From positions 5,146,001 through 5,210,000 of the forward strand of contig NZ_CP074371.1 of the NCBI RefSeq assembly GCF_018362975.1: DNA of 64,000 bases, written 5' to 3'. Made by a program: the position numbers and the translations under genes. Shown in pieces: positions 7,332 through 64,000 of this stretch. A model generated the notes under the pieces. The model did not search any database, was not told the DNA's origin, and was given only the letters and a program-made list of their open reading frames with translations. Within the stretch, counting starts at the first letter, position 1. Every line of letters starts with the position of its first letter. The stretch comes from Nocardia tengchongensis (GTDB lineage Bacteria; Actinomycetota; Actinomycetes; Mycobacteriales; Mycobacteriaceae).

Positions 7332-7347
7332 CTCGTGCCTTCTCAGC

Positions 7348-8550
7348 TCAGGCGTAGGTGGGGGAGTAGGCCCAGAGCCAGTCGGTGTATTTGTAACTGG
7401 CTGTGTCCCTGGTGCGGAACAGCTCGTTGCGTGCGAGCCGGGCGGTTCCGTCGAAGTGCCAGAGCTCGCCCCACATCCGGCCGGTGGTGAGGATCCGATT
7501 GCATCGAGGGGCTCGATGTTTGTTGACCTCGGCCAGGATCAGGGGCCACCCTTCGGCGCCGAGGCTGGGGTAGCGGTGTGCGGCGTGCTCCGCGATGTAG
7601 TCCGCGTCCTCGATGGCCATCACCGCGCCGGAGGCCAAATACTGGAGCGGCGGGTGTGCGGCGTCGCCCAGAAGGATGAGTCGTCCGTTGACCCAATTGT
7701 CGATCGGTTCGCGGTCATACATCGGCCACCAACGGTCCGTCCACAAATGCTCGATACCATCGCGCACGCTCTGATGGCAGCGGGCAAAGGCGTTCGCCAG
7801 CTCATCCGGGCCGCCCCACTCCGCGGCTCCGCGCGTGAATCCGGGAGATTCGAAGACGGCCACCTGATTCAGCATGGTGCCGCCGCGCAGCGGGTACTGG
7901 ATGAAGTGACAGCCGGGTCCGATGTAGCCGACAACGTCGTCGGGATCGTAGTTGACGTCCACTTCGTCGACCGGGAAGGTGCCGCGGTAGGCGACGTAGC
8001 CGGACGCGACCGGAACGTCCTCCGAGATCTGTTGACGCAGTGTGGATCTCAGGCCGTCCATGCCCAGGACGACATCCGCCTGCCAGGTCCTTCCGTCGGC
8101 GCTGGTGACGATCGCACGGTCACCGTCGGTCACCGCCGACTGCACGGTGACGCCGGTGACGAGATTCGCGCCGGCTGCCCGCGCAGCATCGACGAGCAGG
8201 CGGTGCAGATCGCTGCGGTGGATCACGAAGTATGGTCCGTCGTAATGTGCGCGGAAAGCGTTGCCCAGATCGATGGTGGTGAGCACCTCGGCGGTCAGCG
8301 CGTCACGAAAGACGAGGTTCTTCGGTCGCACGCCCTGAGCGAGAGCCGATTCCAGCAGACCCCATTTCGACAGAATCCGCGACCCGTGCGGCCCGATCTG
8401 CAATCCGGCGCCGACTTCGCCGAATTCCGGTGCCTGTTCGAGAAGGGTGACCTCGGTGCCCTTCCGTGCCAGTGCGAGCGCGGCCGCAACGCCTCCGATG
8501 CCGCCACCGACAACCACGATTTGTGCCTTGTTCAGATCAGTCCTGTCCAC
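7348..8550 (-). CDS. FAD-dependent monooxygenase, 3-hydroxybenzoate 6-hydroxylase-like
   Basis: About 400 residues. It has the N-terminal FAD fold [17 protein letters not shown], the DG motif ([13 protein letters not shown]) and the GD motif ([18 protein letters not shown]) of class A flavoprotein hydroxylases, closest in type to salicylate/3-hydroxybenzoate 6-hydroxylases. Such enzymes use NAD(P)H and O2 to make gentisate. I prefer GTG 8550, with AAGGG eight bases upstream, to a GTG at 8598. Divergent from the IclR gene and facing the gentisate dioxygenase genes, it fits the first step of this pathway. Salicylate 5-hydroxylation is an alternative the sequence cannot exclude. Confidence 0.82.
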
Positions 8551-33849: not shown

Positions 33850-35490
33850 GTGGCGTTCAACAGGCGTGGACTCTTCGTGGGTGGTGCGGCCATGACGGCC
33901 GCGGCCACCGCGATGACGACCCGGGGCGCGGGTCGCGCCCGTGCCGACACCAATCCGGATAAACCCAACATCCTGATCGTCGTAGTGGACGAAATGCGTT
34001 CCCCGCAGTGGTTTCCCGATCAGGCCACGCTGAATTCGATCCTGCCGAACACCGCACGGATTCGTCGCGGCGCAGTGTCGTTCGAACAGCACTATGCCGC
34101 GGCCAACGACTGCACTCCCGCCCGCGGCACCATGCTGACGGGTCTGTACGCGCACCAGACCGGATGCCTGCTCACCTCCCAGGCCACCTTGCCGTCGCAG
34201 TTCCCGACCTGGGGTTCGATGATCCGTGACCAGGGTTATCAGACCTGGTGGTGGGGCAAATGGCATCTGGGCCATGACGGTGACACCAGGCCGAGTGCCC
34301 TGGAGGACTACGGCTTCTCCGGCGGCACCTACCCGTCGCCGAACGGCGGGCCCGGACAGGGGATGCAGATGGATCCCAAGATCGTCGACCAGTTCGTGGA
34401 CTGGTTCGACACCGCCGCGGCCAACCAGCCGTGGTGCACCACAGTGTCGCTGATCAACCCGCACGACGTGCAGTGCTGGCCACGCTGGACGCGACAATTG
34501 CAGACGCAGAGACAGATTCCGCGGTGGATGACCGCCCCGCCGCCGAATTTCGAGTCACTCGACCAGCTTTCGCGCAAGCCACGCTTGCAGCGCGCCCTGA
34601 TCGACATCTCGGCGATCGCCTTCGGGATCGCTCCCTACGGCACCCCGGACGCCGCGGACCAATGGACCGCGCTGCTCAATCTGTATCTGTGGCTGCAACA
34701 ACAGGTCGACCTGCAGATCGGCCGGGTGCTCGACGCGCTGGAGGCCCGCCCGGACGTCGCCCGCAACACCGTCATCGTGTTCACCTCCGACCACGGCGAC
34801 TACGCGGGCTCGCACGGCCTGCACGGCAAGGGTGGCGCGGCCTACGACGAGGCGATTCGGGTGCCGCTGTACGTGCACGACCCACGCGGCTACTTCAGCC
34901 CGACCGACGGCACCGGCCTGCGCGGGCAGCTGACCTCGAGCGTGGATCTGGCTCCGCTACTGCTGACGATCGCGACAGGCGGCGGCGGGTGGCGTGGTGA
35001 CGACCAGTACGCGCACCTGACCGGCCGCTACGACCTTGCCGCCATGTGCCGCAACGCTTCAGAGCCGGGGCGGCCGTGGATCGCGCACACCACCGACGAG
35101 AATTCGATCGAGGAAGCCGCGGTCCTGTTCGAACAGAGCGCCCCGGGGCATGTCGTCGCGGTTCGCACCGCCGAGGCGAAATACGCGTCCTATTCACACT
35201 GGGTGCCCGGTGAAGTACGCATCGACACCGGCCGGGACCAGGAGTACGAGCTCTACGACTACTCGACCCGCGACGGCGCGCTGGAACTGGACAACCGTGC
35301 CGGTGACGCCGGGCCGCTCCGCGACCGCATGTCCGCCTTGCATGCCCACGCCATCGATTCCGAACTGCACCAACCGCTTCCAGCGGCGTTGCGCGCCGCG
35401 CAGGACCAGGGTTGGGCCGATTACCAGGACGCCGTAAGCAAACCGATCGGTGAACAGCTCTTCGGGCCCGTCCTCCACGGCGGTGGCTAG
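33850..35490 (+). CDS. Tat-exported sulfatase
   Basis: A 546-residue sulfatase-family enzyme. The N-terminus (FNRRGLFVGGAAMTAAATAM) is a twin-arginine signal. The formylglycine site CTPAR is at about residue 94, the first metal segment is ILIVVVDEMR, and the distal metal segment is FTSDHGDYAG. It should hydrolyse a sulfate ester outside the membrane after Cys-to-formylglycine conversion. GTG 33850. Only this enzyme and the PucR gene stand between the P450 operon and the terminator, so it may release an aromatic substrate from its sulfate ester; speculative. Confidence 0.88.
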   Translation: MAFNRRGLFVGGAAMTAAATAMTTRGAGRARADTNPDKPNILIVVVDEMRSPQWFPDQATLNSILPNTARIRRGAVSFEQHYAAANDCTPARGTMLTGLYAHQTGCLLTSQATLPSQFPTWGSMIRDQGYQTWWWGKWHLGHDGDTRPSALEDYGFSGGTYPSPNGGPGQGMQMDPKIVDQFVDWFDTAAANQPWCTTVSLINPHDVQCWPRWTRQLQTQRQIPRWMTAPPPNFESLDQLSRKPRLQRALIDISAIAFGIAPYGTPDAADQWTALLNLYLWLQQQVDLQIGRVLDALEARPDVARNTVIVFTSDHGDYAGSHGLHGKGGAAYDEAIRVPLYVHDPRGYFSPTDGTGLRGQLTSSVDLAPLLLTIATGGGGWRGDDQYAHLTGRYDLAAMCRNASEPGRPWIAHTTDENSIEEAAVLFEQSAPGHVVAVRTAEAKYASYSHWVPGEVRIDTGRDQEYELYDYSTRDGALELDNRAGDAGPLRDRMSALHAHAIDSELHQPLPAALRAAQDQGWADYQDAVSKPIGEQLFGPVLHGGG

Positions 35491-35520
35491 GAGAGTTTGT
35501 GGACGTGGCCGAAGCCCAAC

Positions 35521-35564
35521 GCATGTCGGCGGGAGCCGGTTGGTGTCGGCTCGCGCCGACATGC
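35521..35564. terminator. Bidirectional hairpin terminator
   Basis: GCATGTCGGCG (35521-35531) pairs with CGCCGACATGC (35554-35564), with an inner GAGCCG/CGGCTC stem. It lies between convergent sulfatase and LLM genes. Confidence 0.75.
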
Positions 35565-35568
35565 GATG

Positions 35569-36558
35569 TCAGCGGTGGTCCGCAGGCTCTGGGCCGATCG
35601 CGGGGAGGACCTGTTCGGTGAACAGTCGCAGCATTTTCCAGCCCTGGTCCGGCGGAATCCCGCCGGCGAGGGGGTTGATGACGATCTGGTCGACGCCGGT
35701 GGCGATGGCGGCCAGACATTGCTCCGGAGTGAGGATTTCGACCGCGCCGCTGTGGCGTAGCTCGTCGAGGGTGATGATGTCCTCGTTCGGGCGGGGGACG
35801 CCGCCGGTTTTCCAGGAGGCGTACTCGGCGGCCTCGGTCAGCAGGTGGGGGCCGAGTTCACGCCAGGCGGTGTCGGGGTCGGGGTGGACGAGGGTGGTGG
35901 TGTTGCCACGGGCGGGACGATAGACGAAACCGCTTGTGCCGTGCCGGAGGAGTTCGTCGCGGTAGAGCTGCTCGAGCTTGGGCATCGGCATCGGCGGGTA
36001 GAACGGCAGCCCGTAGCGGGCTGCGCGTCGGGCCGCGGCGGCGCTCATCCCGCCGATGAACATGATCGGATGCGGCTTGGTGAACGGTTGCGGGGTGACC
36101 TGCACGGTGTGGCCGTTGCGTTCGAACGGTTCCCCGCTCCATGCCTTCGTCAGGATGTCGAGGCAGGCGTCCATGGTCTTGCCGCGCTGTGCCCACTGCC
36201 GGTCCAGCGCCCGGTACTCCGCTTCCCGATAGCCCATTCCGGCGACGAAGCTGAACCGCCCGCCGCTGAGGTTGTCCAGCACCGCGATGTCCTCGGCCAG
36301 CCGCACCGGATCGTAGAGCGGAACCAGCAAGGCGGACACATTGATTCGCACTCGATGTGTGCGCCCGGCAATGGCGGCCGCCAGGATCAACGGCGACGGC
36401 AGCCAGCCGTTGCGCGCGAGATGATGCTCCTCGCACGCCACAGCGGTGAATCCGTGCGCGTCGGCGTAGGCGGCCATGTCCAGCGCCGCTCGATACCACG
36501 ACATATGTTCGGCGCCAGGGGTATTGGTCATGGTCAGCCGCAGTGCAGTCACCACCAT
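35569..36558 (-). CDS. LLM-class (luciferase-like) flavin-dependent oxidoreductase
   Basis: A 329-residue TIM-barrel monooxygenase: FTAVACEEHHLARNGWLPSPLILAAAIAG near the N-terminus, LDNLSGGRFSFVAGMGYREAEY at about 95 and FTKPHPIMFIGGMS at about 165. Members use FMNH2 or F420. ATG 36558. Substrate and cofactor cannot be told; the tail (PLAGGIPPDQGWKMLRLF) is usual for actinobacterial paralogues. Confidence 0.88.
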   Translation of the reverse strand: MVVTALRLTMTNTPGAEHMSWYRAALDMAAYADAHGFTAVACEEHHLARNGWLPSPLILAAAIAGRTHRVRINVSALLVPLYDPVRLAEDIAVLDNLSGGRFSFVAGMGYREAEYRALDRQWAQRGKTMDACLDILTKAWSGEPFERNGHTVQVTPQPFTKPHPIMFIGGMSAAAARRAARYGLPFYPPMPMPKLEQLYRDELLRHGTSGFVYRPARGNTTTLVHPDPDTAWRELGPHLLTEAAEYASWKTGGVPRPNEDIITLDELRHSGAVEILTPEQCLAAIATGVDQIVINPLAGGIPPDQGWKMLRLFTEQVLPAIGPEPADHR

Positions 36559-52930: not shown

Positions 52931-53761
52931 CTACAGCGGATCGGCATGGGATTCTCTGTAGGCGTAGCAAACGCGAATATCTCGAGTGTCGGAGACCTCG
53001 GCGATGTCGATGCTGATGGAATACGGATCGCCGGTCTCGGGATCGCGCAGGTGAGCCAGCTCGTTGGGTTGGCGAGCGTAGGCGACGCGGATGCTGCTCG
53101 TCCAGATTCGGCTGAAATCGCGGTCGCGTTTGAGCTGGTCGAAGAGTGTGACGGCGCGGTGGCTCGCGCGGTAGTGGCCAAGTGCGCCGCGGAGCATCGC
53201 CACGTGGAAGAGCGCCTCCTGCTCCCATTGGAGTGTCACATTGGTCACTCCGCGGGTGTTGTTCGATCTGGAGAAGAACCAGGTAGCGACGTTGCTGTTG
53301 GCTTGATCGAGGCCTGGTAGGGCACGGTGGAAGCTCTTGTTGGCCGATAGGACGTTCCATAGAGGATCGGTGTATACGCAGATCACACCAGTTCTATCTA
53401 GCTGCTCGAGTGTTCTTCGCCGGCTAGGAGTGTCGATGCGCTCGCGGAGCTCGCTAACGGAGGCCAGGGTTGCTGGGGGTTGCCAAAGCTCGAGGGTGTG
53501 TCGGGCTTGCATGGGGCTCATGTCGTATCCGGTGATCAGCCGCAGGACCATCTCGCGTCCGGGGACATACCCGCGATCGATCTTGTTGATGTAGTCCTTG
53601 CTGATATGGGTGCGGTCTGCTGCCTCCTCTCGGGTGAAGTTGCGGTCTTCCCGAACTCTTTGGAGCCATCGGCCCAGGCTGGGCATCTGAAGGTCGGCCG
53701 GCTCGCCTTGGTGGCTGACGGGTAGTTGCTGGTCGAGATTTCTTCCAGGAGTCGGACGCAT
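52931..53761 (-). CDS. XRE-family regulator with MmyB-like ligand domain
   Basis: A 276-residue protein. The helix-turn-helix (LGRWLQRVREDRNFTREEAADRTHISKDYINKIDRG) lies at about residues 29-64. The rest matches MmyB-like regulators: YTDPLWNVLSANKSFHRALPGL, NNTRGVTNVTLQWEQEALFHVAMLRGALGHY. These bind small lipophilic ligands. GGGGAGAGG lies just before ATG 53761. It is divergent from the rightward module; repeated TGGTAA/TTACCA dyads between them are probably its operators. Confidence 0.88.
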   Translation of the reverse strand: MRPTPGRNLDQQLPVSHQGEPADLQMPSLGRWLQRVREDRNFTREEAADRTHISKDYINKIDRGYVPGREMVLRLITGYDMSPMQARHTLELWQPPATLASVSELRERIDTPSRRRTLEQLDRTGVICVYTDPLWNVLSANKSFHRALPGLDQANSNVATWFFSRSNNTRGVTNVTLQWEQEALFHVAMLRGALGHYRASHRAVTLFDQLKRDRDFSRIWTSSIRVAYARQPNELAHLRDPETGDPYSISIDIAEVSDTRDIRVCYAYRESHADPL

Positions 53762-53962: not shown

Positions 53963-53977
53963 GGTAATTGTCTTACC
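53963..53977. promoter_or_regulatory. Candidate XRE operator 1
   Basis: GGTAA-TTGTC-TTACC, an inverted repeat with a five-base spacer in the divergent region between the XRE regulator and the rightward module. The rest of 53762-54124 holds no gene. Confidence 0.55.
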
Positions 53978-54032
53978 AATTGCTCGCGATTTGGCTGCAT
54001 TTGAAGCGCGACGGGTTGGTAAGAACCTTATC

Positions 54033-54049
54033 TGGTAAATCTCTTACCA
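54033..54049. promoter_or_regulatory. Candidate XRE operator 2
   Basis: TGGTAA-ATCTC-TTACCA, a perfect six-base dyad with the same five-base spacer, about seven helical turns from operator 1. A lone TTGGTAAG half-site lies at 54016-54023. Confidence 0.6.
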
Positions 54050-54124: not shown

Positions 54125-54232
54125 GTGGATCCGATGGCAATCCTGTCCTACTTGAACCTCGGTTCGTCGATCGCGTCGAATGGTCTGAATCTCTTGACCC
54201 AGCTCTTCTCGATCGTGGGACAGTTCCTGTAA
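54125..54232 (+). CDS. 35-residue hydrophobic/amphipathic peptide
   Basis: GTG 54125 follows GAAAGGTAACCTC, a plausible ribosome site; an in-frame ATG at 54134 would give 32 residues. The product starts MDPMAILSYLNLGSSIASNG and ends LLTQLFSIVGQFL. It has no charged residue after position 2, no Cys, and would form one short membrane or amphipathic helix. It is the first gene after the operators and is followed by a perfect hairpin, so it may be the most abundant transcript of the module. I recognise no family; small porin-like or holin-like peptides are analogies only. Confidence 0.55.
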   Translation: MDPMAILSYLNLGSSIASNGLNLLTQLFSIVGQFL

Positions 54233-54254
54233 GTCCCGACCTTGCCTGCCGGCG

Positions 54255-54282
54255 CTCCTGGCTGCAAATGTGCAGCCAGGAG
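54255..54282 (+). terminator. Hairpin (terminator or attenuator) after the small peptide gene
   Basis: CTCCTGGCTGCA and its perfect complement with an AATG loop. No strong T run follows, so partial read-through into the next gene is possible. Confidence 0.7.
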
Positions 54283-54354
54283 GCCTGGCTTCAGCTTTCG
54301 AACAGTATTCGATTCTGGGCGTATGCCTTCTTCTGATGAAGGGCTATCTTAGGA

Positions 54355-55254
54355 ATGTTAATTCCAGAAAATTGTGATGCCCGCAAAAGTTTGTCGACGA
54401 TGCACCGGGCCCGCGGGCCCCTGATCGTCCGCAGCGGGCGCTTCGTCATCGCGGGACTCGTTCCCGTCTCGATATTGCTGGGCGGGCCTGGTCACGCTCA
54501 GGGTGCCACTCCCGAGCAGATCTCCGATCAACCGGGCATCACCAGTCCCGCGCAGCCAGGAACGGTCGCTCCGGCACCTCCATCGCCGCCCGATGCGCAG
54601 GCGCCCCAGCCCGAACCGGCTGTTCCGCGGTACCCGGAGCAACCGCCCGAGGTGCGCAATGGAACCTCACCGAGGCCTGAGCCCTCCCCGGATCCTGCGC
54701 CTCGGGTTGATCTGCAGGACCTTCATCTGCCGGAGCCTGTACCGCCGGTGGCGCCAATCCAGCCACCGGACAACACGATCAGAATCGGTGAGTGGCAGGC
54801 CCCGTCCCCGGACTGGCTGCCCACGCAGGCGCGGGACTGGATCAACGACACGGCCGCCGGCGCGGAAGCCCAGGTCGCGACTGTATTGGACTCGGTGGGT
54901 TTCCCGGCCGGGCGCTCGGACCGTGTCAGTGGCGCGACCCTGGCAGGCGCCGGAGTCGGCGGGGCCGTGGGGGCGGTGGTCGCGGCCGGCCCGTTCGCCG
55001 CGGTCGGTGCGGTCATGGGCGGGCTCATCGGCGGCACGGTCGGTGGCATCGCCGGTGCCGCGGTGGGAACCCTCGTGCCCGTGCCGATTCTGGGGACTGT
55101 TACCTCAGGCGCCTTCGGGACGGCCCTCGGCGCCGCAGCCGGCGCGGCGGTCGGCGCGGCAGTGGCCGGAATTCCTGTCGGCTTTGTCGGCGCGCTGGCC
55201 GGAGGCACCGTCGGAGCGGGGTTCGGGGCCGGGGTTGGGGAGGGACAGCCATGA
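54355..55254 (+). CDS. Secreted Pro-rich protein with C-terminal glycine-zipper region
   Basis: A 299-residue protein with a signal-like N-terminus (FVIAGLVPVSILLGGPGHAQG), a Pro/Ala/Glu-rich stretch (about 50-140), a short polar segment with WQAPSPDWLPTQARDWIND, and about 100 residues of Gly/Ala/Val repeats such as GGLIGGTVGGIAGAAVG. Such glycine zippers pack into membranes or pores. ATG 54355 or 54400 may be the start. Its TGA overlaps the cutinase ATG (ATGA). No known family was identified. Confidence 0.7.
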   Translation: MLIPENCDARKSLSTMHRARGPLIVRSGRFVIAGLVPVSILLGGPGHAQGATPEQISDQPGITSPAQPGTVAPAPPSPPDAQAPQPEPAVPRYPEQPPEVRNGTSPRPEPSPDPAPRVDLQDLHLPEPVPPVAPIQPPDNTIRIGEWQAPSPDWLPTQARDWINDTAAGAEAQVATVLDSVGFPAGRSDRVSGATLAGAGVGGAVGAVVAAGPFAAVGAVMGGLIGGTVGGIAGAAVGTLVPVPILGTVTSGAFGTALGAAAGAAVGAAVAGIPVGFVGALAGGTVGAGFGAGVGEGQP

Positions 55255-56489
55255 GCCAACGCATTTCACGGATATCCGGCGGCACCGCAATAGCGCTCCT
55301 CTGCGGTGCAACCCTGGTCGGTGGATCGGAAACAGCAGCAGCACAGCAGGTCCCGATCGGCCCCGGCTGCCCCGCGCTCTACGCGCTCGGTGTTCAAGGT
55401 ACCGGCCAGTCCTCACCCTCGGCGAGTCTGACCGCAGACACCGGGGTGGTCGGTGCCCTGCTGGGCCCTGTGGTCTCAGCGGTGCCGACACTGGTACAAC
55501 GCAGCTACGTACCCTATGAGGCCGGCTTCGGTGGAGCCGTTCCCGGCGGTGGCGCGGACCCGTACTCGGAGTCACTGGATTCAGCTCTCACCGGCCTCGA
55601 TGATGCAGCGGCACGGGTGATAGCAGCCTGCCCGACCACGATGCTCGCGGTGGTCGGCTATTCCCAAGGGGCGCAGGCGGTAGCCGAGTTCGCGCAGACG
55701 GTCGGGGCGGGTAGCGGCCCCGTGCCTGCGGACCGAATCGCCGGAATCGCGCTGTACTCCAATCCAATTCGCTCGTCCGGTGAACCTGTCTTTCCAGGTC
55801 GTCCAGGGCAGGTGGTGCCTGATCCGGCGCCGGGCAACGCAGGGGCTGCGGTATCGGCAGTGCAGCTCACCAGCTCTGCCTCCACCGGTGCGGGAATCGC
55901 CGATGACGGTGCGACATACGGCGCGCTGACCGGACGCGTCGCCGACATCTGCGCCGACGGAGACCTGGCGTGTTCGGCACCGGACAACGCCGCAGTACTG
56001 CGTTTGGGTGCCGAACTCGCTGCTCAGGCCAACCTCAAGGACCCCATCTCGGCGATCGGATCGATTCAGTCCCTGCTCTCGGCGGCACTGGGTAATGCCT
56101 GGACAACGGTTTTACTAAATGACTTCCAGCTCGACGACGGCAATGTCGACTACACGCCGACACGCACGCTGGCACAACGACTGACCGACGCCACAGATCC
56201 TCGCATTCCTGAGCCCTCGCCAGAGGACGCCACCGCGGCGACGTCGCGATGGAACGAGATCACCGCCACCGTCGCCCAGAACCCGCTCGTCCTGCTGCCG
56301 AAACTCGTCTCGCAATTGTCCGGAGCGTGGGGCCAGTTCGCCGCTGACAACAGCGACCTGGTCAACCCCGCGGTCTGGATCCGATTCGCAGACATGGTCG
56401 CTCGCCACAACGGCTACGCCACCACCGGACAGCTGAACTCCGGGATCGCCTGGCTCATCGCCCTCGCGCACGACCTTGCGGGGAGCTGA
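55251..56489 (+). CDS. Secreted cutinase-family serine esterase
   Basis: A 412-residue protein with a signal peptide (GGTAIALLCGATLVGGSETAAA). The cutinase domain begins GCPALYALGVQGTGQSS; nucleophile elbow VVGYSQGAQAVAEF, the Asp in DICADGDLAC and the His in ARHNGYATTG form a full catalytic triad. Cutinase domains are usually near 200 residues; here about 100 extra residues (PLVLLPKLVSQLSGAWGQF) lie between the Asp and His. Mycobacterial relatives hydrolyse lipids and mycolate esters. It overlaps the preceding gene and is followed at two bases by a lipase-like gene. Confidence 0.88.
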   Translation: MSQRISRISGGTAIALLCGATLVGGSETAAAQQVPIGPGCPALYALGVQGTGQSSPSASLTADTGVVGALLGPVVSAVPTLVQRSYVPYEAGFGGAVPGGGADPYSESLDSALTGLDDAAARVIAACPTTMLAVVGYSQGAQAVAEFAQTVGAGSGPVPADRIAGIALYSNPIRSSGEPVFPGRPGQVVPDPAPGNAGAAVSAVQLTSSASTGAGIADDGATYGALTGRVADICADGDLACSAPDNAAVLRLGAELAAQANLKDPISAIGSIQSLLSAALGNAWTTVLLNDFQLDDGNVDYTPTRTLAQRLTDATDPRIPEPSPEDATAATSRWNEITATVAQNPLVLLPKLVSQLSGAWGQFAADNSDLVNPAVWIRFADMVARHNGYATTGQLNSGIAWLIALAHDLAGS

Positions 56490-56491
56490 CC

Positions 56492-57604
56492 ATGACCGAC
56501 TTCTACGCACTACTGCCTGCCGAGCACGGCGATCGCCCAGGTCAACTGCTCCGTACACAGGCCATCACCGTCCCGGGGCTCGATCACCGGACGAGAGCGT
56601 GGGGCATCATGTACGTCTCCAGCGACTCGCGCGGAGAACCGATCCCCGTCACCGGAACGGTGCTCTCCAAGACGTCGACGGCGCAGTCGCAACCGACGCC
56701 GATTGTCGTGTATTGCCCCAGCTTCCACGGACTCGGCGGCCAATGCGCTCCCTCCCAACAACTGCTCGCCGCCGGCGAACCACTCGACCAGATCCGTGAA
56801 GCCCTCGACCGGGAGTGGACCGTTGTTGTGCCGGACGGCGAGAACCTCGGCATCACCGGCCTAGGCCCGCACACCTTCCTCGCCGCCCGCGCGGCCGCGC
56901 ACGTCGCACTGGACCTGGCCCGAGCCGCCCAAGCGATACCGGAACTCGCACCGTCGCACACCTCGCGCGCACCCGTCGTGCTGTGGGGCTACGGCGACGG
57001 CGGCCGTGCCACAGTATGGGCCACCGAGCTCGCGCCGGAATACGCTCCGGACCTCGACCTGCGCGGAGTCGCGGCCGGTGCGGTCGTGACCGACCCCGGC
57101 GCGCTGGTCCGCACACAACACCACGGACCGTGGGCAGCGCTGGCGCTGGCTGGACTGATCGGACTTTCCCGCGCGTACCACCATCTCCCATTGCGTCATG
57201 TCCTTACCGAGGATGGCCGGCGGGTGGCACGACACGCTGAGCAGCTCAGCGCGGCAACGCTTCTCGCGCAGTATCGACAGCCGCTGCAACACTGGTGCGA
57301 GCGCCCGGACCCTTGGAACGACGCCATATGGCGCTTCGTCCTGACTCGCGAAAGCCGAAGCAGCGCAGCAACTCCCGCCGCACCTGTCCATCTGTATCAC
57401 GGCACCCACGACCCGATCGTGCCGGTTGAATCCGGCGGCGAACTGTTCATCGAATATCAGCGCCGAGGCATCGAGGTCAGCTGGCGCGAATACGACGCCA
57501 ACCACCTCCGCACTGCCGTCGACAGCACACCAGAAGTCGCCGACACGCTCGCCAGCTTCCTGCGTCGGCCACCGACCCACGACGGGCCGCTACCCGGCCC
57601 CTAA
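56492..57604 (+). CDS. Lipase-like alpha/beta-hydrolase without catalytic serine
   Basis: A 370-residue protein of the secretory lipase (LIP) family without an obvious signal peptide. The usual elbow WGYSQGG is WGYGDGGRATVWATELAPEYAPDLDL here: the nucleophilic Ser is Gly, and Gln is Asp. The acid (HGTHDPIVPV) and the His (YDANHLRTA) are kept. It is therefore either a pseudo-enzyme with a binding or structural role, or a hydrolase using another residue. It sits between two cutinase-like genes in the same operon. Confidence 0.8.
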   Translation: MTDFYALLPAEHGDRPGQLLRTQAITVPGLDHRTRAWGIMYVSSDSRGEPIPVTGTVLSKTSTAQSQPTPIVVYCPSFHGLGGQCAPSQQLLAAGEPLDQIREALDREWTVVVPDGENLGITGLGPHTFLAARAAAHVALDLARAAQAIPELAPSHTSRAPVVLWGYGDGGRATVWATELAPEYAPDLDLRGVAAGAVVTDPGALVRTQHHGPWAALALAGLIGLSRAYHHLPLRHVLTEDGRRVARHAEQLSAATLLAQYRQPLQHWCERPDPWNDAIWRFVLTRESRSSAATPAAPVHLYHGTHDPIVPVESGGELFIEYQRRGIEVSWREYDANHLRTAVDSTPEVADTLASFLRRPPTHDGPLPGP

Positions 57605-57661
57605 CGCTCGAGCGCGACGTTCGCGTTGTCGCCACACGCCCTCAGAGATCAGGAATGCGAG

Positions 57662-59198
57662 GTGAATCCTTTGTTGCACAGTTCACACACTCAGCTCACA
57701 CCCTTCGGCCGCACGGCCGCAGCTCTGGTCACCCTTGTGGTGACGATCGCGTTCGCATCGACCGGTTTGCTCACCCGCTCGCAAGCCGATGTCCCCGTCG
57801 ACAGCGCATGCCCCGCGCTGTACGTCTTCGGGGTTCAAGGAACAGACGAAGGCCCCTCCGACGCCGCACCGACCACCGACACCGGAGCCCTCGGACAATT
57901 CTTCTCCGCACTGATCGCAGCGGCCGGAGCCACCGTGCAGCGCTCCTACGTGCGCTACGGCTACGCCGACGACGGCACCGAGACGCCGTATCAGCAAGCC
58001 GTGACCGATGCTGCGGACCTACTCGGAAAGAACGCCGCCGAGATTGCCCAACGCTGCCAGGCCACTCGCATCGCCGCCGCCGGCTACGGACAGGGGGCCG
58101 CCGCAGTCTCTTCATTCGCTCACACCGTCGGCACGGGTGCCGGTCCCGTGGAACCGGACACCGTGGCGGGCGTCGCCCTGTTCGCCAACCCCGCCCGCGC
58201 CGACAAGGCTGTGCTGCCCGGCCGCCCGGGACAAACCACCCCGACCGCCGCGCCCGGCACCGCGGGCACCGCGGTCGCACAGATCACGCTGACCGATACC
58301 GGGACCAGCGGATCAGGAATCGCCAGCAACAGCGCTGTCGACTACGGCTCACTCGTTGGACGGGTCGCTGACTTCTGCACTCCAGGCGACCTGTCCTGTG
58401 ACTCCACTACCGATACACCGCTGACCAAGACTGTGAAAAACATTGCCGCACAGTCCGATACCAAGGACCCCATCACAGCCATCTCCACGATCGCGCAAGC
58501 ATTGGCGGCCACGGTGTGGAAGACCACCGTGGGGGTGGTCACCGAAGACCTCTCCGGCACGAGCTTGGATCAGCTGTCCTACCAGCCGACCAAAACGCTC
58601 GGACAGCGATTGGCCGAAGCATCAGACCCCAGCAACACCGATCCCCGGCATCGGTGACGCCCTCTCGGTGCTGTTCCGGCTGGGAACGATCGGACTCAAC
58701 ACCGTGGTCTCGGTCGCACAAACAGTATTCACCACAAGCACGATCAGCGAACTCGCCACCGTAGGTATAGCCGACCCGGTCGCCGCCCTGGCCGCACTCG
58801 GGGCGAAAGTCGTTGGCGCGGTAGCGGAATTGATTCCTCCGGCGACCGCACTGGGCTGGGTGAATCAAGCATTCACCGCCATCACAACCACAGTCACCAA
58901 CGACAACGACCTCTACAACCTGGCGACCTACACCCAATACAGCGACACCGCCGGACGACACGACTCCTACACCAGCGCTTCGGCCGACTCCTCCGGAACA
59001 GCCCCGCTCAGCGCCGCCGCCACATGGTTCGCCGCCCTGGCCCGCGATATCGCCGCGACCAACCCCGCGACGTCGCTACCTAAATCGGCCACACCGTCCA
59101 CCGGTGCGACACCGAGCGCCGCAACGCCCACACAGCCCTCGTTGCCCCCCGTCGCGACTCCACCGTCAGCGACCACCAGCAGCTCGCCTGCTCCCTAG
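57662..59198 (+). pseudogene. Cutinase-like protein without catalytic serine, frameshifted
   Basis: From GTG 57662: a membrane/signal segment (ALVTLVVTIAFASTGLLT), cutinase start CPALYVFGVQGTDEG, and the elbow AAAGYGQGAAAVSSF in which the nucleophilic Ser is Gly. The Asp segment DFCTPGDLSC and, in the second frame, the His segment AGRHDSYTSA remain. The frame breaks at the CCCC run 58643-58646; removing one C gives NTDPGIGDALSVLFRLG and an intact protein of about 511 residues with a Pro/Ser/Thr tail. The frame break may be an error; the Ser-to-Gly change is separate from it. Confidence 0.78.
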
Positions 59199-59200
59199 AC

Positions 59201-59273
59201 CCCTTCGGGCAGACGGTGGTCTCTGCGCCAGAGATAACCAGGCCAGTCCCTCGCGGGCCGTCTGCCCGAAGGG
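59201..59273 (+). other. Structured intergenic RNA element
   Basis: CCCTTCGGGCAGACGG and its perfect complement enclose 41 bases that hold a second stem (TCTCTG-CGC-CAGAGA). It lies between the cutinase-like gene and the next membrane protein gene. There is no T run, so it could be an mRNA processing/stability element or attenuator. Confidence 0.6.
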
Positions 59274-59311
59274 CCCCACTCCACATCACACAGCACAGGA
59301 GGTGAATTCCG

Positions 59312-60046
59312 ATGCCCCACAACACCACCACCGATTCGCGCACCCACGGCAACAGCGAGTGGGGCTGGCTCGAGAGCTCAATACCCACGGCATTACCCGC
59401 CCAGCCCAGCGCCCCGACCAACCCAGCCCGCGAGACCAACTCCGAATGGGGCTGGCTACCAGACGATCTGGATGCCGCGGCAACGCGCGATGAGTCGCGA
59501 GTGGACTTCGACGAGCGGCCGGTTTCGAGGACAGCACGCCTGCGATGGGTCGTTCCCATCGTGTCGATCCTGATTTCGATCTCGGTGATCATCTTTGCCG
59601 TCTTCGCCCTGGACGGCCGGACAGAGTCCACCGTGTCAGCGCCGCCGACCGTGACATCAAGTGCGCCGCCGACCCCAGCGTTGACCGGTGCCTGCACGGG
59701 CCTGAGCGCCACGACGGTCACCGCCGGCCCCGGTGGTCCAGCCAGCGTCACCGGCGTGATCGCCGCCTTCGAGTACGCCTACTACCAGCAGCGTTCGGCG
59801 GATGCAGCGCTGGCATTGGTCACTCCCGGAGCCGGGCTCGCACGCGATCCGCTCACCGCTGGTATCGCGTCCATTCCCGCCGGGACCACGCACTGCGTCG
59901 CGATCACACCGATCGCGGACGCCACGGCCAACGTGCACCTGGTCGAGCTGCACCCCGATCACACCCGAACGGACTACCTGCAGGTGGTCAACCTCCGCCG
60001 CACACGGGCAGGGCTGTTGATCGACAACATTCAGAAGCAGGGATAA
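59312..60046 (+). CDS. Single-pass membrane protein with repeated NSEWGWL motif
   Basis: A 244-residue protein. The cytoplasmic N-terminal region holds NSEWGWL twice (residues 14-20 and 43-49); a membrane helix VVPIVSILISISVIIFAVFAL lies at about 80-100; the extracytoplasmic part begins with a Pro/Thr/Ser linker and has one Cys pair (GACTGLS, THCVAIT). AGGAGG precedes ATG 59312. Bitopic proteins of this design occur in actinobacterial conjugation modules, but I cannot name a family. Confidence 0.65.
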   Translation: MPHNTTTDSRTHGNSEWGWLESSIPTALPAQPSAPTNPARETNSEWGWLPDDLDAAATRDESRVDFDERPVSRTARLRWVVPIVSILISISVIIFAVFALDGRTESTVSAPPTVTSSAPPTPALTGACTGLSATTVTAGPGGPASVTGVIAAFEYAYYQQRSADAALALVTPGAGLARDPLTAGIASIPAGTTHCVAITPIADATANVHLVELHPDHTRTDYLQVVNLRRTRAGLLIDNIQKQG

Positions 60047-60049
60047 CCG

Positions 60050-60712
60050 ATGCACGCCAACGTCATTCACCTCCACCGACCCGTCAGCACCGAGCCGGGA
60101 CGTTTCGAGCCAGATACCGTCACCGCGCCGACTCCGGACCGTCAAGCACCGGTTCGTTCGACCCCGCTGCCCACTACCGGCCCCTACCCGCCGCTGTTCG
60201 CCGTGCAAGGCGCACACGGGGGCGCCGGCGCAACCACGTTGGCGCACTGGTGGGCACCGGCAGCAGATACCGGACTGGCCTGGCCCGCCTCCCCACAGAC
60301 CACACAACGAGTAGTCGTCGCCGCACGCGACTGCCTACCCGGACTCACCGCCGCCGCGGATCGTCTTCGCGAATGGCATGCCGGACTTGCTCCCTCGGGC
60401 GTTACCGTCCTCGGACTGGTGCTGACCCCGGTCCGGCCTGGCCGCGTCCCCGCAGCGGTACGCCGCTATCGACGCATCGTCGCCGATCTGGTGGACGAGG
60501 CGATCTGGTCCATCCACTGGCACGAGGAGCTCCTCGTCTGCGACCTCGCCCAGCTGGCGCAATTCACCCCGAACGATCCCCCGCCATCCCGACGCGCAGA
60601 CCTCAGCAGCGCGGTGCCCATCGATGTGCACCAAGCGGGGACAGCGATCACCGCGCGGATCGCCGCCACTCGTCCGAAAACCGACCCAGACGTGTCCGGG
60701 GACCTTCAATGA
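60050..60712 (+). CDS. Degenerate P-loop protein (ParA/CpaE-like)
   Basis: A 220-residue cytoplasmic protein. FAVQGAHGGAGATTLAHWW at about 50-67 looks like a ParA/TadZ Walker A, but the key Lys is replaced by Ala (GGAGATT against GGxGKT/S). TVLGLVLTPVRPGRVP and RIVADLVDEAIWSIHWHEEL follow. It may bind but probably does not hydrolyse nucleotide. It starts three bases after the preceding gene, and its stop overlaps the next start (ATGA). A positioning or scaffold role is inferred. Confidence 0.6.
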   Translation: MHANVIHLHRPVSTEPGRFEPDTVTAPTPDRQAPVRSTPLPTTGPYPPLFAVQGAHGGAGATTLAHWWAPAADTGLAWPASPQTTQRVVVAARDCLPGLTAAADRLREWHAGLAPSGVTVLGLVLTPVRPGRVPAAVRRYRRIVADLVDEAIWSIHWHEELLVCDLAQLAQFTPNDPPPSRRADLSSAVPIDVHQAGTAITARIAATRPKTDPDVSGDLQ

Positions 60713-60999
60713 CGTTGCCACTGATGCTGTCCACCGTCGAGGTACTGGCTCAGCAGGTCCACATCACCCCCGAGCAACCACCCGGCGCCAACGGCCTGAT
60801 CAAAATTGTCAATTGGTTGTCCTGGTTCGTGATGCTCGCGGGAATCGCCGCGCTCATCTACGCCGGCGGCAAATTCGCCTGGGAACGCTGGCACGGCGGT
60901 GCGGTCGAAGCCCCCAAGATCGTCCTCGGTGCCCTCGTCGGCGGAATCATCGCCACCAGTGCAGGAACGATCATGACGCAGATCACGAGCGTGCAATGA
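60709..60999 (+). CDS. Small two-helix membrane protein, VirB2/TrbC-like in layout
   Basis: A 96-residue protein with helices IVNWLSWFVMLAGIAALIYAGG and IVLGALVGGIIATSAGTIMTQI linked by a short basic loop (KFAWERWHGGAVEAPK). Size and hairpin topology resemble pilin-like VirB2/TrbC subunits of type IV secretion systems; the sequence alone does not prove it. ATG 60709 overlaps the upstream stop. Confidence 0.6.
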   Translation: MTLPLMLSTVEVLAQQVHITPEQPPGANGLIKIVNWLSWFVMLAGIAALIYAGGKFAWERWHGGAVEAPKIVLGALVGGIIATSAGTIMTQITSVQ

Positions 61000-61117
61000 C
61001 ATCCCTGACGAAATCCACAGCCCGCGAACACCTTTCGATATCGAAGCCGCCTAGCGCGTGTATCGACGTCTCGGCCGAGAGGTATCACTTCGACGCGAAA
61101 TCCAAGGAATCAGCACT

Positions 61118-62057
61118 ATGACCCTGCTCGACCCCAGCGTATTGAGCGTTCACTCCACCGACGATCTCGAACTCGCCGCCACCCGGCTCGGCGCACCTGA
61201 TGCCGCAAAGACCGTCGTCTACGTCCACGGCCTCTTGAGCGACGGCAGCTACTGGTCGCCGGTCGTCGAACAGGTGCACCACCGTCTCGGCGACAACATC
61301 ACCCAGATCGCCTACGACCAGCGCGGCCACGGAATCTCCGGTCGACCCGACCGCCGCAGCGCCACCACGCTCCGTCATCTGGTCGATGACCTCGACGCCG
61401 TACTCGCGCACGCCAGCGGCGAGGTCATCCTGGTTACCCACTCCGCCGGGTCACTGGTCGCAGCCGCGTATGCGCAACACCACCCGACCCAAGCCTCGGC
61501 CCTGTCCGCGTTGGTCATCTTCAGCGGCGGCGGCGAGTTTCCCGAATTCCCCTCTCTCGCCACGCGTTACCGCGAACTGCCACGCCGGGTGCAGCGGCTG
61601 AGGCGAACCCGCCTCGACGCCGTGTCCGTCGCGATCATCGCCTTCTTCGAACACCGCTTCCGCGCTTTGAGTCGACGTCTGGGCTCCCGGGCACCACTGA
61701 TATGCGGCGCACGCCGCGGCGACCCGCGGGTCCTGGCCGACGTGCTCGCCGCCTACGGCGAGTTCACCCTCGACGCCGAGGCTGCCGCTCTGCTGCGCGG
61801 GATTCCGACCTTCGTGATCGCGGGCGAACGCGATCGGGTAGTCCCACCAGCCCAATCTGTTCGGCTGGCAGAACGCATCTGGGCCGACTACGAACTGGTG
61901 CCCGGCGCGGGCCACAGCCTCCCGCACGCAGAGCCCGGCCGGGCCGCGCGACGCGATCGTGCATGCCCTCGAAGCCGTCGCACGCAACGCCATCGACGAC
62001 ACCCTCGCCCGAGCCGAACGTGCCGCCACCGCAGCAGGAGACGAACCGTGGTACTAG
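61118..62057 (+). CDS. Alpha/beta-hydrolase (3' end frameshifted)
   Basis: A cytoplasmic alpha/beta-hydrolase of about 312 residues. The motif VVYVHGLLSDGSYW (oxyanion), the elbow VTHSAGSLVAAAYA with Ser present, Asp in AGERDRVVPP and His in GAGHSLPHAE form a full triad. As given, the frame runs through into the next gene. Removing one G at 61941-61943 gives RDAIVHALEAVARNAIDDTL and a TAG at 62057 that overlaps the next start. ATG 61118 has AAGGAA upstream. All catalytic residues precede the break. Confidence 0.78.
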
Positions 62058-62284
62058 CGAAATCCCTTCCGCCACAAGTCACGCAATTCCTCACACCAAT
62101 GCTGGGATGGCTCGCCTGGATCGTGCTGCTGCTGTGCATCGCGCGCACGATCTTTCTCGCCGGCCTGCTCGGGATTCGCATCTACCGAGAAGAAGCCACC
62201 GAAGGACTAGCCGGATCTCTGCTGGCCGCAGTCCTGGTCGGCTCCGCCAGCGGCATCGCCGCCGCGATCTACCCGACCCACTGA
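62048..62284 (+). CDS. Small membrane protein with two helices
   Basis: A 78-residue protein from GTG 62048: helices MLGWLAWIVLLLCIARTIFLAGL and GLAGSLLAAVLVGSASGIAAAIY separated by RIYREEATEG. It overlaps the restored hydrolase end by ten bases. Its layout mirrors the 96-residue protein at 60709; both could be small T4SS-type channel or pilin components. Confidence 0.65.
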   Translation: MVLAKSLPPQVTQFLTPMLGWLAWIVLLLCIARTIFLAGLLGIRIYREEATEGLAGSLLAAVLVGSASGIAAAIYPTH

Positions 62285-62303
62285 CGCTCATAAGGGGCGA
62301 GAA

Positions 62304-62942
62304 ATGCGCTATTCACCCTCGACGGTCATGGGCACACTGACCCTCAGCGCGGGTCTGCTCGGGTCGAGCATCCTGCTGGCAGGGTGCAGTCACCACAGCA
62401 CTGATCCGGTGCCCGGCACCGCCACGACCGCGAACATCGATGCTCCACCGAGCAACCTGAAAGCGAATGTATTTCAAGGAATTTCATTGCCAGGCGCGGA
62501 TCAGGGTCCACGAAACAACAGCGGCGCCGTGGTCAGCGGGTTCGATCGAAGTCCCGTCGGTGCCGCTCTGGCCGCGATCAACACGACAGTCCGGATATCT
62601 GTTGCGACGGACAGTGAATGGGCGCCGATCGGTCAGCGGATGCTCGCGTCAGGACCCGGTCGTGACGCCTGGGCGATCGCTCGATCGCAGATCTCCATCA
62701 CCGACCCCATTACTGCCAACGCACCGAGAATCGCTGGATACCGCGTCGCGACCTACACCGCGGATCGCGCAGAGATCGCCATTTTCACGATCCAGTCCGA
62801 TCAGTCGCTCACTCGGAACGCCGCAATTGTTATTTGGCAACTCGGTGACTGGAAGCTACTGCTTCCCAGCCAGCTCCAAACATCGCCTGTGCAAACGGTG
62901 ACCGCCTTGCCCTCCAATCTCATTCCGCTACCACTTCCATGA
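62304..62942 (+). CDS. Lipoprotein of the module
   Basis: A 212-residue lipoprotein: signal GTLTLSAGLLGSSILLAGC with lipobox LLAGC. The core has AVVSGFDRSPVGAALAAINT and IVIWQLGDWKLLLP. The same pattern (GVASGFADTPQGAALAACD, MAWSDGDWRVRVP) is in the next protein, so the two share a domain of an actinobacterial conjugation-type family (DUF8175-like, my assignment). Anchored on the outer face of the membrane. Confidence 0.65.
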   Translation: MRYSPSTVMGTLTLSAGLLGSSILLAGCSHHSTDPVPGTATTANIDAPPSNLKANVFQGISLPGADQGPRNNSGAVVSGFDRSPVGAALAAINTTVRISVATDSEWAPIGQRMLASGPGRDAWAIARSQISITDPITANAPRIAGYRVATYTADRAEIAIFTIQSDQSLTRNAAIVIWQLGDWKLLLPSQLQTSPVQTVTALPSNLIPLPLP

Positions 62943-62958
62943 GATGAGGACGCCGACC

Positions 62959-63762
62959 ATGAGCCTTCGACGTCCTGGACCCGTGCTGCCCATCGGAATC
63001 ACGGTCCTGATCATCACTCTCACTGTTCTCGCCGCAATTCGATACCACGGCAATTCCAACGATGGGTCAACACCGGCCGCGAAAATCACACCCCCGACGG
63101 CAAACACAACGACAGATTCCAGTTCGTCTCGACTGCCAACCACCGACATCTTCGGCAACAGGCTCGAAACCCCAGCCGATCCGGGAGGTGTTCCTCTTCC
63201 ACAGGAGCCGATGCTGCGGCCGAACCCGAATCGGCCCGACTATCTCACTGCGGCTCCTGCCCGAATGCAGTGGCAGCGCGGATGGGGAGGCGCGGCGCTG
63301 CCGATCTCCGGCAGCGACGGACCCACCACCATCGCGGCAGGAGTCGCTTCAGGGTTTGCCGACACCCCACAAGGCGCTGCCCTGGCCGCGTGCGACGCGA
63401 TCGCGCGAGCCCTGTCCGCGCCAGAAGAACTGTGGCGCAGCGTTGTACACCAGCGGTTCCTCAGCGGTGGTGCCGCCCTGACCGATCGCCTCGCCAGCAG
63501 CCGCCTCGAGACGCTCGACGCTGCGACCTATGTCGTCGTACCCGAAGGAATCCGGGTGCTACCGGGATATCAGCCAGATTTTGCCGTGGTACAGATCGCC
63601 GTTCGCGCGACCGGTGGATGGGCCTACGCGAACTGGCCAATGGCGTGGAGCGATGGCGACTGGCGAGTGCGGGTTCCCGATGACATCGAATCCCTCTGGG
63701 CATCCGCAGTTCCCGTCACCTCCCTCGCAGAGTTCGGTTCCTGGAAAGGAATTTCGCTATGA
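62959..63762 (+). CDS. Bitopic membrane protein sharing a domain with the preceding lipoprotein
   Basis: A 267-residue protein with one N-terminal helix (VLPIGITVLIITLTVLAAI), a Thr/Ser/Pro linker, and an extracytoplasmic domain with GFADTPQGAALAACDAIARAL and WSDGDWRVRVPD. ATG 62959 is preferred to 62944 because GAGGA lies eight bases before it. Its TGA overlaps the next ATG (ATGA). It resembles TcpC/DUF8175-like structural parts of conjugative machinery; no enzymatic motif. Confidence 0.65.
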   Translation: MSLRRPGPVLPIGITVLIITLTVLAAIRYHGNSNDGSTPAAKITPPTANTTTDSSSSRLPTTDIFGNRLETPADPGGVPLPQEPMLRPNPNRPDYLTAAPARMQWQRGWGGAALPISGSDGPTTIAAGVASGFADTPQGAALAACDAIARALSAPEELWRSVVHQRFLSGGAALTDRLASSRLETLDAATYVVVPEGIRVLPGYQPDFAVVQIAVRATGGWAYANWPMAWSDGDWRVRVPDDIESLWASAVPVTSLAEFGSWKGISL

Positions 63763-64000
63763 GCGGCCCGATTCTCCTCGCATATCCGGTCGCTGAGGCC
63801 GGTCCTTTGCATGACTCACCGGGACAGATCCTGTGCAACCTGCCGAATGTCGTAGGAGCTGTGTGCCAGTTGAAGAATTTCGGCGAAAAGGCCGTGGGAG
63901 CTGCGGGGAGCTCGGTCCTGAACAACATCGCCAACATGTTCGGAGAGGCGTTCGGCAACGCACTCCGGATGGCGATGACCTGGTGGGTCAGCCTACCTTC
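63759..64000 (+). CDS. Start of a large membrane protein (cut by window edge)
   Basis: ATG 63759 follows AAAGGAATTTCGCT. The first 80 residues (MSGPILLAYPVAEAGPLHDS, then CNLPNVVGAVCQLKNFGEKA, NNIANMFGEAFGNALRMAMTWWVSLP) are open to the end of the window. In other actinobacterial conjugation modules a protein with such an N-terminus is a polytopic VirB6/TrbL-like channel subunit; this is suggested by position and the amphipathic segments only. Confidence 0.6.
   Translation, partial: MSGPILLAYPVAEAGPLHDSPGQILCNLPNVVGAVCQLKNFGEKAVGAAGSSVLNNIANMFGEAFGNALRMAMTWWVSLP

Follow-up and report, generated by a model that had tools for sequence, protein, structure and literature searches.

A cutinase has already been put forward in print as a possible aid to actinobacterial conjugation (PMC6794481, available in part), and the plasmids pRErm46 and pFiD188 carry a cutinase proposed or reported to act in this way; neither pseudoenzymes nor a lipoprotein VirB8 or glycine-zipper protein are mentioned in the available parts of their descriptions, which also contain no comparison across taxa. 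Rhodococcus equi plasmids with the class of type IV secretion system (T4SS) considered here are described as conjugative (PMC6852188, available in part). The available parts of the open-access literature that we searched do not explain how a conjugation apparatus gets through the outer layer of mycolic acids. Here, we analyse a 64-kb stretch (the window, 5146001-5210000) of the 8.0 Mb single-contig genome of Nocardia tengchongensis together with the next 50 kb, for which the window numbering is continued rightward beyond 64000. The genes from position 54125 onwards probably make up that half of a mating-pair-formation operon which faces the cell envelope, the operon belonging to a conjugative element integrated into the chromosome.

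The circular rhodococcal plasmids (pVAPA/pVAPB, pREC1 and pKNR type) share with this element a leftward helix-turn-helix (HTH) gene, a cutinase, a glycine-zipper protein (GZ), two VirB8-like proteins, a VirB6-like protein, SCO6880, a VirB4-like protein, a murein hydrolase, a TraM-recognition coupling protein and DUF4913, as well as a MobF relaxase (by PLSDB typing); in pVAPB1593 the direction is the same and the gene order nearly so. The Nocardia elements exceed these plasmids by a secretory-lipase-family protein (LIP), a second, dead cutinase (C2) and a 35-residue peptide, and a plasmid of Nocardia sp. NBC_01377 holds a live and a dead cutinase with no match to LIP. The SCO6880-type systems of Streptomyces, Arthrobacter, Micromonospora and other genera without mycolic acids share SCO6880, the VirB4-, VirB6- and VirB8-like proteins, DUF6668 and the coupling protein, but 72 such loci contain no cutinase, GZ or LIP and mostly a single VirB8-like open reading frame (ORF). 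A possible aid of a cutinase to conjugation had already been proposed; of the pseudoenzymes, the taxonomic switch and a Nocardia-wide T4SS copy, no account was found in the open-access literature searched.

The operon and its conjugation core

A sequence-only reading of the window had described a rightward gene series behind one regulator, with repeated ATGA-type overlaps, as a possible conjugation-type module containing exported hydrolases and a glycine-zipper protein. The series is real and runs from 54125 to the window end behind one leftward regulator, with four-base overlaps at 55251/55254, 60709/60712, 63759/63762 and 65207/65210, and GZ does contain 20 GxxxG motifs within its last 140 residues. 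The genes are as follows.

52931 to 53761, minus strand: regulator with HTH and MmyB-like ligand-binding domains (PF17765 E 3.5e-11, PF13560 E 2.2e-8), divergent from the operon
53972 to 54049, no strand: candidate operator with three CTTACCA sites
54125 to 54232, plus strand: 35-residue peptide ORF at the operon head, GTG start; uncharged, amphipathic
54400 to 55254, plus strand: GZ, exported proline-rich protein with a Gly/Ala glycine-zipper domain of about 120 residues
55251 to 56489, plus strand: C1, secreted cutinase-family hydrolase (PF01083 E 6.3e-9; GYSQG)
56492 to 57604, plus strand: LIP, secretory-lipase-family pseudoenzyme (PF03583 E 1.5e-29; GYGDG; no signal peptide)
57662 to 58657, plus strand: first part of C2, pseudo-cutinase (PF01083 E 2.4e-7; nucleophile elbow GYGQG)
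58668 to 59198, plus strand: second part of C2, a single ORF with 57662-58657 in relatives
59312 to 60046, plus strand: T59, protein with a single transmembrane helix, kept in mycolate-genus T4SS loci
60050 to 60712, plus strand: DUF6668-type T4SS protein, by profile (no Pfam match of its own; relatives at the same place are annotated DUF6668)
60709 to 60999, plus strand: VirB2/TrbC-like small membrane protein, by position and profile (the Arthrobacter gene at the same place is annotated TrbC/VirB2)
61118 to 62284, plus strand: alpha/beta hydrolase (PF12697 E 3e-21; elbow VTHSAGS), the ORF continuing into a second VirB2-like protein
62304 to 62942, plus strand: B8a, lipoprotein paralogue of the VirB8-like protein, lipobox LAGC
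62944 to 63762, plus strand: B8b, VirB8-like protein with a transmembrane helix and an NTF2-like domain
63759 to 65210 (the window ends at 64000), plus strand: VirB6-like polytopic membrane protein, by sequence and profile (no Pfam match)

To the right of the window the series continues into the core of the system.

65207 to 66682, plus strand: SCO6880-type protein, T4SS core
66982 to 68463, plus strand: VirB4-like ATPase, P-loop NGFGKSS, frame open further upstream
68611 to 69585: NlpC/P60 peptidoglycan (murein) hydrolase (PF00877 E 2e-17)
78994 to 80850: TraG/VirD4 coupling protein (PF12696 E 7e-16, PF02534 E 4.8e-14)
91256 to 94447, minus strand: MobF relaxase domain, TrwC-type (PF08751 E 6.9e-78)
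88827 to 91757, minus strand: helicase part of the relaxase, in the other, overlapping frame
97124 to 97642: SSB
97704 to 99440: ParB-like protein, below the Pfam cut-off

Finding neither a relaxase nor a conjugation ATPase in the neighbouring 30 kb or so had been named beforehand as evidence against a conjugation module. A VirB4-like ATPase, a coupling protein and a relaxase domain of the MobF type, as expected of a conjugative SCO6880-type T4SS, are all present within 31 kb right of the window end. Because the T4SS core, the coupling protein and the MobF domain continue rightward, the conjugation reading is right. The VirB8-, VirB6- and VirB2-like parts were assigned by profile homology and the murein hydrolase by Pfam. 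The VirB4-like protein has no Pfam match, and a chromosomal relative reaches PF19044 at E 4.7e-5, below the cut-off; used as a query, 66982-68463 matches 469 plasmid records, many annotated as ATP-binding or lying in T4SS loci. The relaxase gene is probably not whole, since its C-terminal helicase part sits in another, overlapping frame. A tyrosine-recombinase-like ORF at 112144-112977 scores 21.3 bits against a Pfam cut-off of 27.1, and no tRNA gene was found across the window and the 50 kb that follow it; neither the element borders nor an integrase/att pair were established.

Distribution in mycolate and non-mycolate genera

A search of 118 Nocardia genomes with VirB4 returned two classes of match. 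The class of the window comprises 53 rows in 45 genomes (window included), 67-100% identical, from which 35 further loci of this integrative and conjugative element (ICE) type were taken (31 + four). Five were set aside, namely L059, L060, L067 and L075, whose contigs end before the hydrolases, and L082 (genome G059), which is degenerate and has no LIP. The 30 remaining loci plus the window all hold C1, LIP and C2 together, in identical order in 29 of the 30 (L084 has C1 and GZ turned round). This recurrence indicates that the hydrolase grouping is not due to chance. A divergent HTH gene also stands upstream of the operon in G117, G072, G103 and others.

For comparison across genera, 26 plasmid T4SS loci were chosen by name, 15 from genera that we take to be mycolate-bearing and 11 from others, and searched with profiles made from the Nocardia genes. 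One mycolate locus (L103) is cut at the record start and was dropped, leaving 14 evaluable; its circular record has a cutinase match elsewhere, at 7324-8205. Genomic controls came from a genome scan with a VirB4 alignment, which gave 80 loci, all from organisms that we take to be non-mycolate by title; the 61 of at least 20 kb were counted, all positive for VirB4 and SCO6880, and the 19 under 20 kb were left out.

A cutinase accompanies the T4SS in 13/14 evaluable mycolate plasmid loci, being absent from Corynebacterium faecale, versus 0/72 non-mycolate loci (0/11 plasmid, 0/61 genomic), and none occurs in all 80 genomic controls. The 13 loci belong to Rhodococcus, Prescottella, Gordonia, Dietzia, Corynebacterium and Nocardia. 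The GZ profile matches 11/14 mycolate, 0/11 non-mycolate plasmid and 0/61 genomic loci, while T59 is found in 12/14, 1/11 (weak, E 7e-4) and 1/61, respectively. Two distinct VirB8-like ORFs are present in 14/14 mycolate plasmid loci versus 1/72 non-mycolate loci: the non-mycolate plasmids have one in 9/11 and none detected in two, and the 61 genomic loci have one in 59, two in one (Actinomyces, L200) and none in one. Hence the cutinase, GZ, T59 and the lipoprotein VirB8 go with the T4SS where the genus is a mycolate one, and almost none of them occurs in the sampled non-mycolates. As these genes are present with a mycolate layer and not found without it, they name, in order, candidate parts for crossing it. 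Two further components are restricted more narrowly. The LIP profile gave 0/15 mycolate plasmid, 0/11 other plasmid and 0/61 genomic loci, and the peptide profile 0/15 plasmid and 0/60 chromosomal T4SS stretches, so that the peptide was seen only in Nocardia ICE-type loci among those searched.

The plasmid records at large show a similar pattern. C1 matches 303 records, 300 in presumed mycolate genera, one in Cryobacterium and two in unnamed genera, and the 469 records matching VirB4 include 93 from Streptomyces, 52 from Arthrobacter, 21 each from Paenarthrobacter and Clavibacter and 15 from Curtobacterium. The T4SS-adjacent plasmid cutinases keep the GxSxG serine in 12/13 loci (the C. mustelae motif is GNSQG). 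The exception is the Nocardia sp. NBC_01377 plasmid (L033), where the cutinase adjoining the T4SS is dead (GNAHG) and a live one (GFSQG) is found 13 kb upstream; the two occupy L033:19902-21128 and 34516-36015, and the genes between them include several oxidoreductases.

One hydrolase with an intact triad and two predicted pseudoenzymes

The catalytic residues were followed through the best 120 relatives each of C1, LIP and C2. In C1 the triad is intact (S138-D238-H386, with 148 residues from Asp to His), and Ser, Asp and His are each present in 120/120 listed relatives, as required of an active cutinase (PF01083). Across the 31 loci the three residues are each found in 30/30, the L084 call being without the stretch for Ser and Asp and the L071 call ending before His. 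By sequence, the nearest solved structures are Rv3802c (E 7.7e-17) and MSMEG_6394 (E 1.8e-15), and a profile of 50 C1 proteins again places Rv3802c first (5w95, E 5.5e-29), followed by MSMEG_6394 (3aja, E 1.6e-25). The AlphaFold model of C1 has a pLDDT of 64.3 and is poor outside the core; Foldseek with this model lists Rv3802c and MSMEG_6394 first and LysB-D29 (3hc7) at rank 10 (E 3.7e-4). Structure was dropped as an arbiter between an Rv3802c-like and a LysB-like C1, the model being too weak. Mycobacteriophage LysB resembles C1 in having a cutinase core in which a long insertion separates the catalytic Asp and His: the linker of LysB-D29 spans D166-H240, compared with 12 residues in other esterases and cutinases (PMC7022511, available in part). 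It differs in the length of this spacing (74 residues versus 148 in C1), and the C1 sequence is nearer to Rv3802c and MSMEG_6394. A mycolyl ester is a plausible substrate for C1 on the basis of this kinship and of the long Asp-His spacing, as in LysB.

The nucleophile position of LIP is Gly168 in the window. The listed relatives have Ala in 89, Gly in 31 and Ser in 0/120, with Asp in 120/120 and His in 117/120, and the 31 loci have Ala in 23, Gly in seven and Ser in one (L084), with Asp and His in 31/31. LIP therefore lacks both the Ser nucleophile and the signal peptide expected of an active secretory lipase (PF03583). The proposal that the hydrolases are exported holds for C1, where an N-terminal hydrophobic stretch occurs in 117/120 listed relatives, and fails for LIP, where it occurs in 0/120. 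The reading of LIP as an ordinary exported lipase was rejected on this absence together with the dead nucleophile.

In C2 the listed relatives have Ala (61), Gly (41), Ser (11), Thr (4), Arg (2) or Glu (1) at the nucleophile position. Ser is thus missing in 109/120, including the best 93, and the Ser-bearing relatives all rank 94 or lower; Asp is kept in 120/120 and His in 93/120, and 73 of the best 93 have an N-terminal hydrophobic stretch. Among the 31 loci, Ser is found in one (L077) and otherwise Ala, Gly, Thr or Arg, with Asp in 31/31 and a varying His position. The family of the alpha/beta hydrolase at 61118-62284 keeps its nucleophile Ser in 21/25. Median dN/dS over 23 close pairs is 0.141 for C1, 0.198 for LIP, 0.232 for C2, 0.194 for B8b and 0.069 for VirB4, with 0.307 for B8a (22 pairs). 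LIP and C2 are under purifying selection, as seen from values of about 0.2 alongside widespread dead nucleophiles.

Paired VirB8-like proteins and the operon head

B8a and the VirB8-like protein that stands alone in non-mycolate loci are homologues (hhalign 99.9%, E 9e-32). A lipobox is found by pattern in 32/35 Nocardia B8a genes versus 2/43 for the second copy, B8b, and the Cys is invariant in 8/8 aligned B8a sequences. The B8a-type proteins of plasmid loci have a lipobox by pattern in 9/14, and the Cys aligns in three more (L032, L098, L106). The AlphaFold model of B8b (pLDDT 74.8) gives NTF2-like folds as the top Foldseek matches, none at E 1e-3 or better; the fold call is weak, and structure was set aside as proof that B8b is a VirB8. 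In the non-mycolate Actinomyces glycerinitolerans, the second VirB8-like ORF (L200:5060-5836) has a lipobox-like VAGC.

Homologues of the peptide ORF at 54125-54232 precede GZ in 24 of the 27 other ICE-type loci for which upstream sequence is available; 23 have 35 residues and one has 33, and they are absent in L063, L076 and L085. Residues 4-33 of the window peptide are uncharged, with a moment of 0.348 versus a shuffle mean of 0.123, a value reached by 1/1000 shuffles. For three relatives, 4, 1 and 40 shuffles per 1000 reach the observed moment. The pN/pS ratio is 0.48 (24 ORFs). The peptide may resemble the corynebacterial PorA/PorH porin peptides.

Between the regulator and the operon, CTTACCA occurs twice on the plus and once on the minus strand within 78 bp, and nowhere else in the window. 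Three copies per 64 kb are not unusual in themselves; their clustering is. An operator shared across elements was rejected, the cluster being confined to the window among 25 loci, some with short upstream sequence.

A relaxase-free chromosomal system in Nocardia

The second VirB4 class, at 56-59% to the window VirB4, matches at E 1e-240 or better in 114/118 Nocardia genomes. The four misses are one 85%-complete genome, two genomes in 1340 and 610 contigs, and G044, which is given as complete and in which VirB4 is matched only more weakly (E 1.8e-135). Among 298 genomes drawn from the order, 37 have any VirB4 match at 1e-40, and matches of at least 85% occur in seven same-genus genomes and in no other among the matches listed. 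The copy in the window genome lies at G000:C1:6098081-6111711.

Stretches of 60 kb were read in G020, G104 and G067. In all three the second T4SS adjoins relA (PF04607 in G020), the other flank being, as we read the sequence, presumably PPIase and hisS genes. The locus holds a cutinase, T59, a DUF6668-type protein, a VirB2-like pair, two VirB8-like proteins and a VirB6-like protein, and also SCO6880, VirB4, a murein hydrolase, a coupling protein and DUF4913, and no relaxase or integrase was seen over the 60 kb. Chromosomal hydrolase loci without conjugation genes were the other finding named in advance as counting against the sequence-only reading, and they exist in part: a cutinase is present and the relaxase absent, but VirB4 and the coupling protein remain.

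We counted 47 full chromosomal loci, leaving out six short ones of 53; a relA match lies within the stretch taken in 40/47. A cutinase is kept in 36/47, all 36 with at least two VirB8-like ORFs, and 10 of the 11 loci without it keep one (G059 keeps two), a linked loss with a Fisher p of 2e-9, uncorrected for descent. In five of these 11, forming one clade, the murein hydrolase is also absent, as is most of T59. On the VirB4 tree the fewest changes are five for the cutinase and four for VirB8. Taken as independent pairs, the linked loss comes down to three pairs (p 0.25), so that the joint loss of the cutinase and the lipoprotein VirB8 is only suggestive; we rejected it as proof, the independent events being too few. 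Remnants in G049 (cutinase ends and a B8a end, with intact genes between) point to separate losses. The window genome has lost the cutinase at its chromosomal locus, and a fragment with cutinase, T59 and VirB2-like parts is found near 6.378 Mb.

State of the window copy and other genes of the element

C2 is one ORF of 458-535 residues in four Nocardia relatives and two ORFs in the window; the nearest relative, P0242, is 95% identical and a single protein of 511 residues, from which we take the window C2 to be split. The stretch 61118-62284 corresponds in four relatives to two genes, a hydrolase of 311-337 residues and a membrane protein of 77-78 residues. The genes for C2, for the alpha/beta hydrolase and for the relaxase all appear interrupted compared with relatives or a single frame; the window copy looks partly broken, which either decay or sequencing error would fit.

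An array of about six related proteins of about 300 residues lies at 70687-76541, between NlpC/P60 and TraG; copy number varies among the other ICE-type loci, and 0/2 scanned members match Pfam. Cargo-like genes lie inside the element at 82216-88611, among them a PfkB-family kinase (PF00294 E 6.9e-18) and what we take, from reading the sequence, to be NUDIX-like, radical-SAM-like and phosphotransferase-like genes.

Discussion

We propose, with a probability of roughly 0.6, that the front genes form an outer-envelope adaptation module of the T4SS, a function that we infer. C1, once exported, would cleave lipid esters in the mycolate layer where the cells mate, in the manner of phage LysB, and B8a would be a lipid-modified duplicate of the inner-membrane VirB8, giving the channel an outward anchor. 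GZ and the amphipathic 35-residue peptide may enter the mycolate bilayer or open it. C2 could be retained for lipid binding without catalysis, as a scaffold, adhesin or limiter of C1, while LIP, having no signal peptide, might have an intracellular role as chaperone or binding partner. The earlier idea that the hydrolases help in passing the mycolate layer stands in that the cutinase and GZ track the T4SS in mycolate genera; it does not extend to LIP, which is not export-like, and a role for the pseudoenzymes is again something we infer. A bolder version, that a one-membrane T4SS has gained a dedicated mycolate-crossing outer-membrane stage (lipidated VirB8, GZ, porin-peptide-like peptide, LysB-like cutinase and two dead hydrolases) and that a relaxase-free copy was domesticated across Nocardia, is offered tentatively, as somewhat less probable than even.

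Several points weigh against the proposed module. The C. faecale T4SS has no cutinase, no GZ and no lipobox in either VirB8-like protein, and the cutinase is gone from 11/47 Nocardia chromosomal loci; the cutinase is therefore not always needed. The GZ profile misses Dietzia and C. mustelae, and the low-complexity composition of GZ can inflate profile scores. The 80 genomic controls are best matches to a non-mycolate query as opposed to a random draw, and mycobacterial T4SS loci lie outside the sample. The nearest solved relatives of C1 are Rv3802c and MSMEG_6394, not LysB, the C1 model is weak, and the linked loss shrinks to three independent pairs.

The hydrolases might instead be cargo or degradative enzymes, acting on plant cutin or storage lipids, that merely stand in front of a T4SS operon. 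Cutinases are common in the genome (11 PF01083 matches) and conjugative elements do carry cargo, but the place before the T4SS recurs in 30 ICE-type, 13 plasmid and 36/47 chromosomal loci, the hydrolases were not found with the same T4SS in the 72 non-mycolate loci, and two of them are conserved despite dead nucleophiles. With the synteny repeated in this way, chance cargo is unlikely. Nor do we favour the view, improbable though with some weight, that the T4SS serves mainly for protein or lipid secretion, the added genes exporting or processing lipids or an effector, with conjugation secondary. The near-universal relaxase-free version in Nocardia (VirB4 in 114/118 genomes) and the three chromosomal loci beside relA, with a coupling protein and no relaxase or integrase seen over 60 kb, would suit such a role; the window element, however, carries a MobF relaxase domain, and R. 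equi plasmids of the same T4SS class are described as conjugative (PMC6852188, available in part). That C2 and LIP are simply decaying copies is very unlikely. The split C2, the alpha/beta hydrolase ORF fused to its neighbour and the relaxase gene in two overlapping frames all speak of decay in the window, whereas across Nocardia C2 and LIP have a dN/dS of about 0.2, similar to the T4SS genes, Asp is kept in 120/120 in both sets of listed relatives, and LIP keeps His in 117/120.

Two catalytically dead hydrolases retained genus-wide in a DNA-transfer operon would represent an unusual use of pseudoenzymes. With a relaxase-free T4SS in almost all of the Nocardia genomes examined, the biology of the genus would gain a secretion system.

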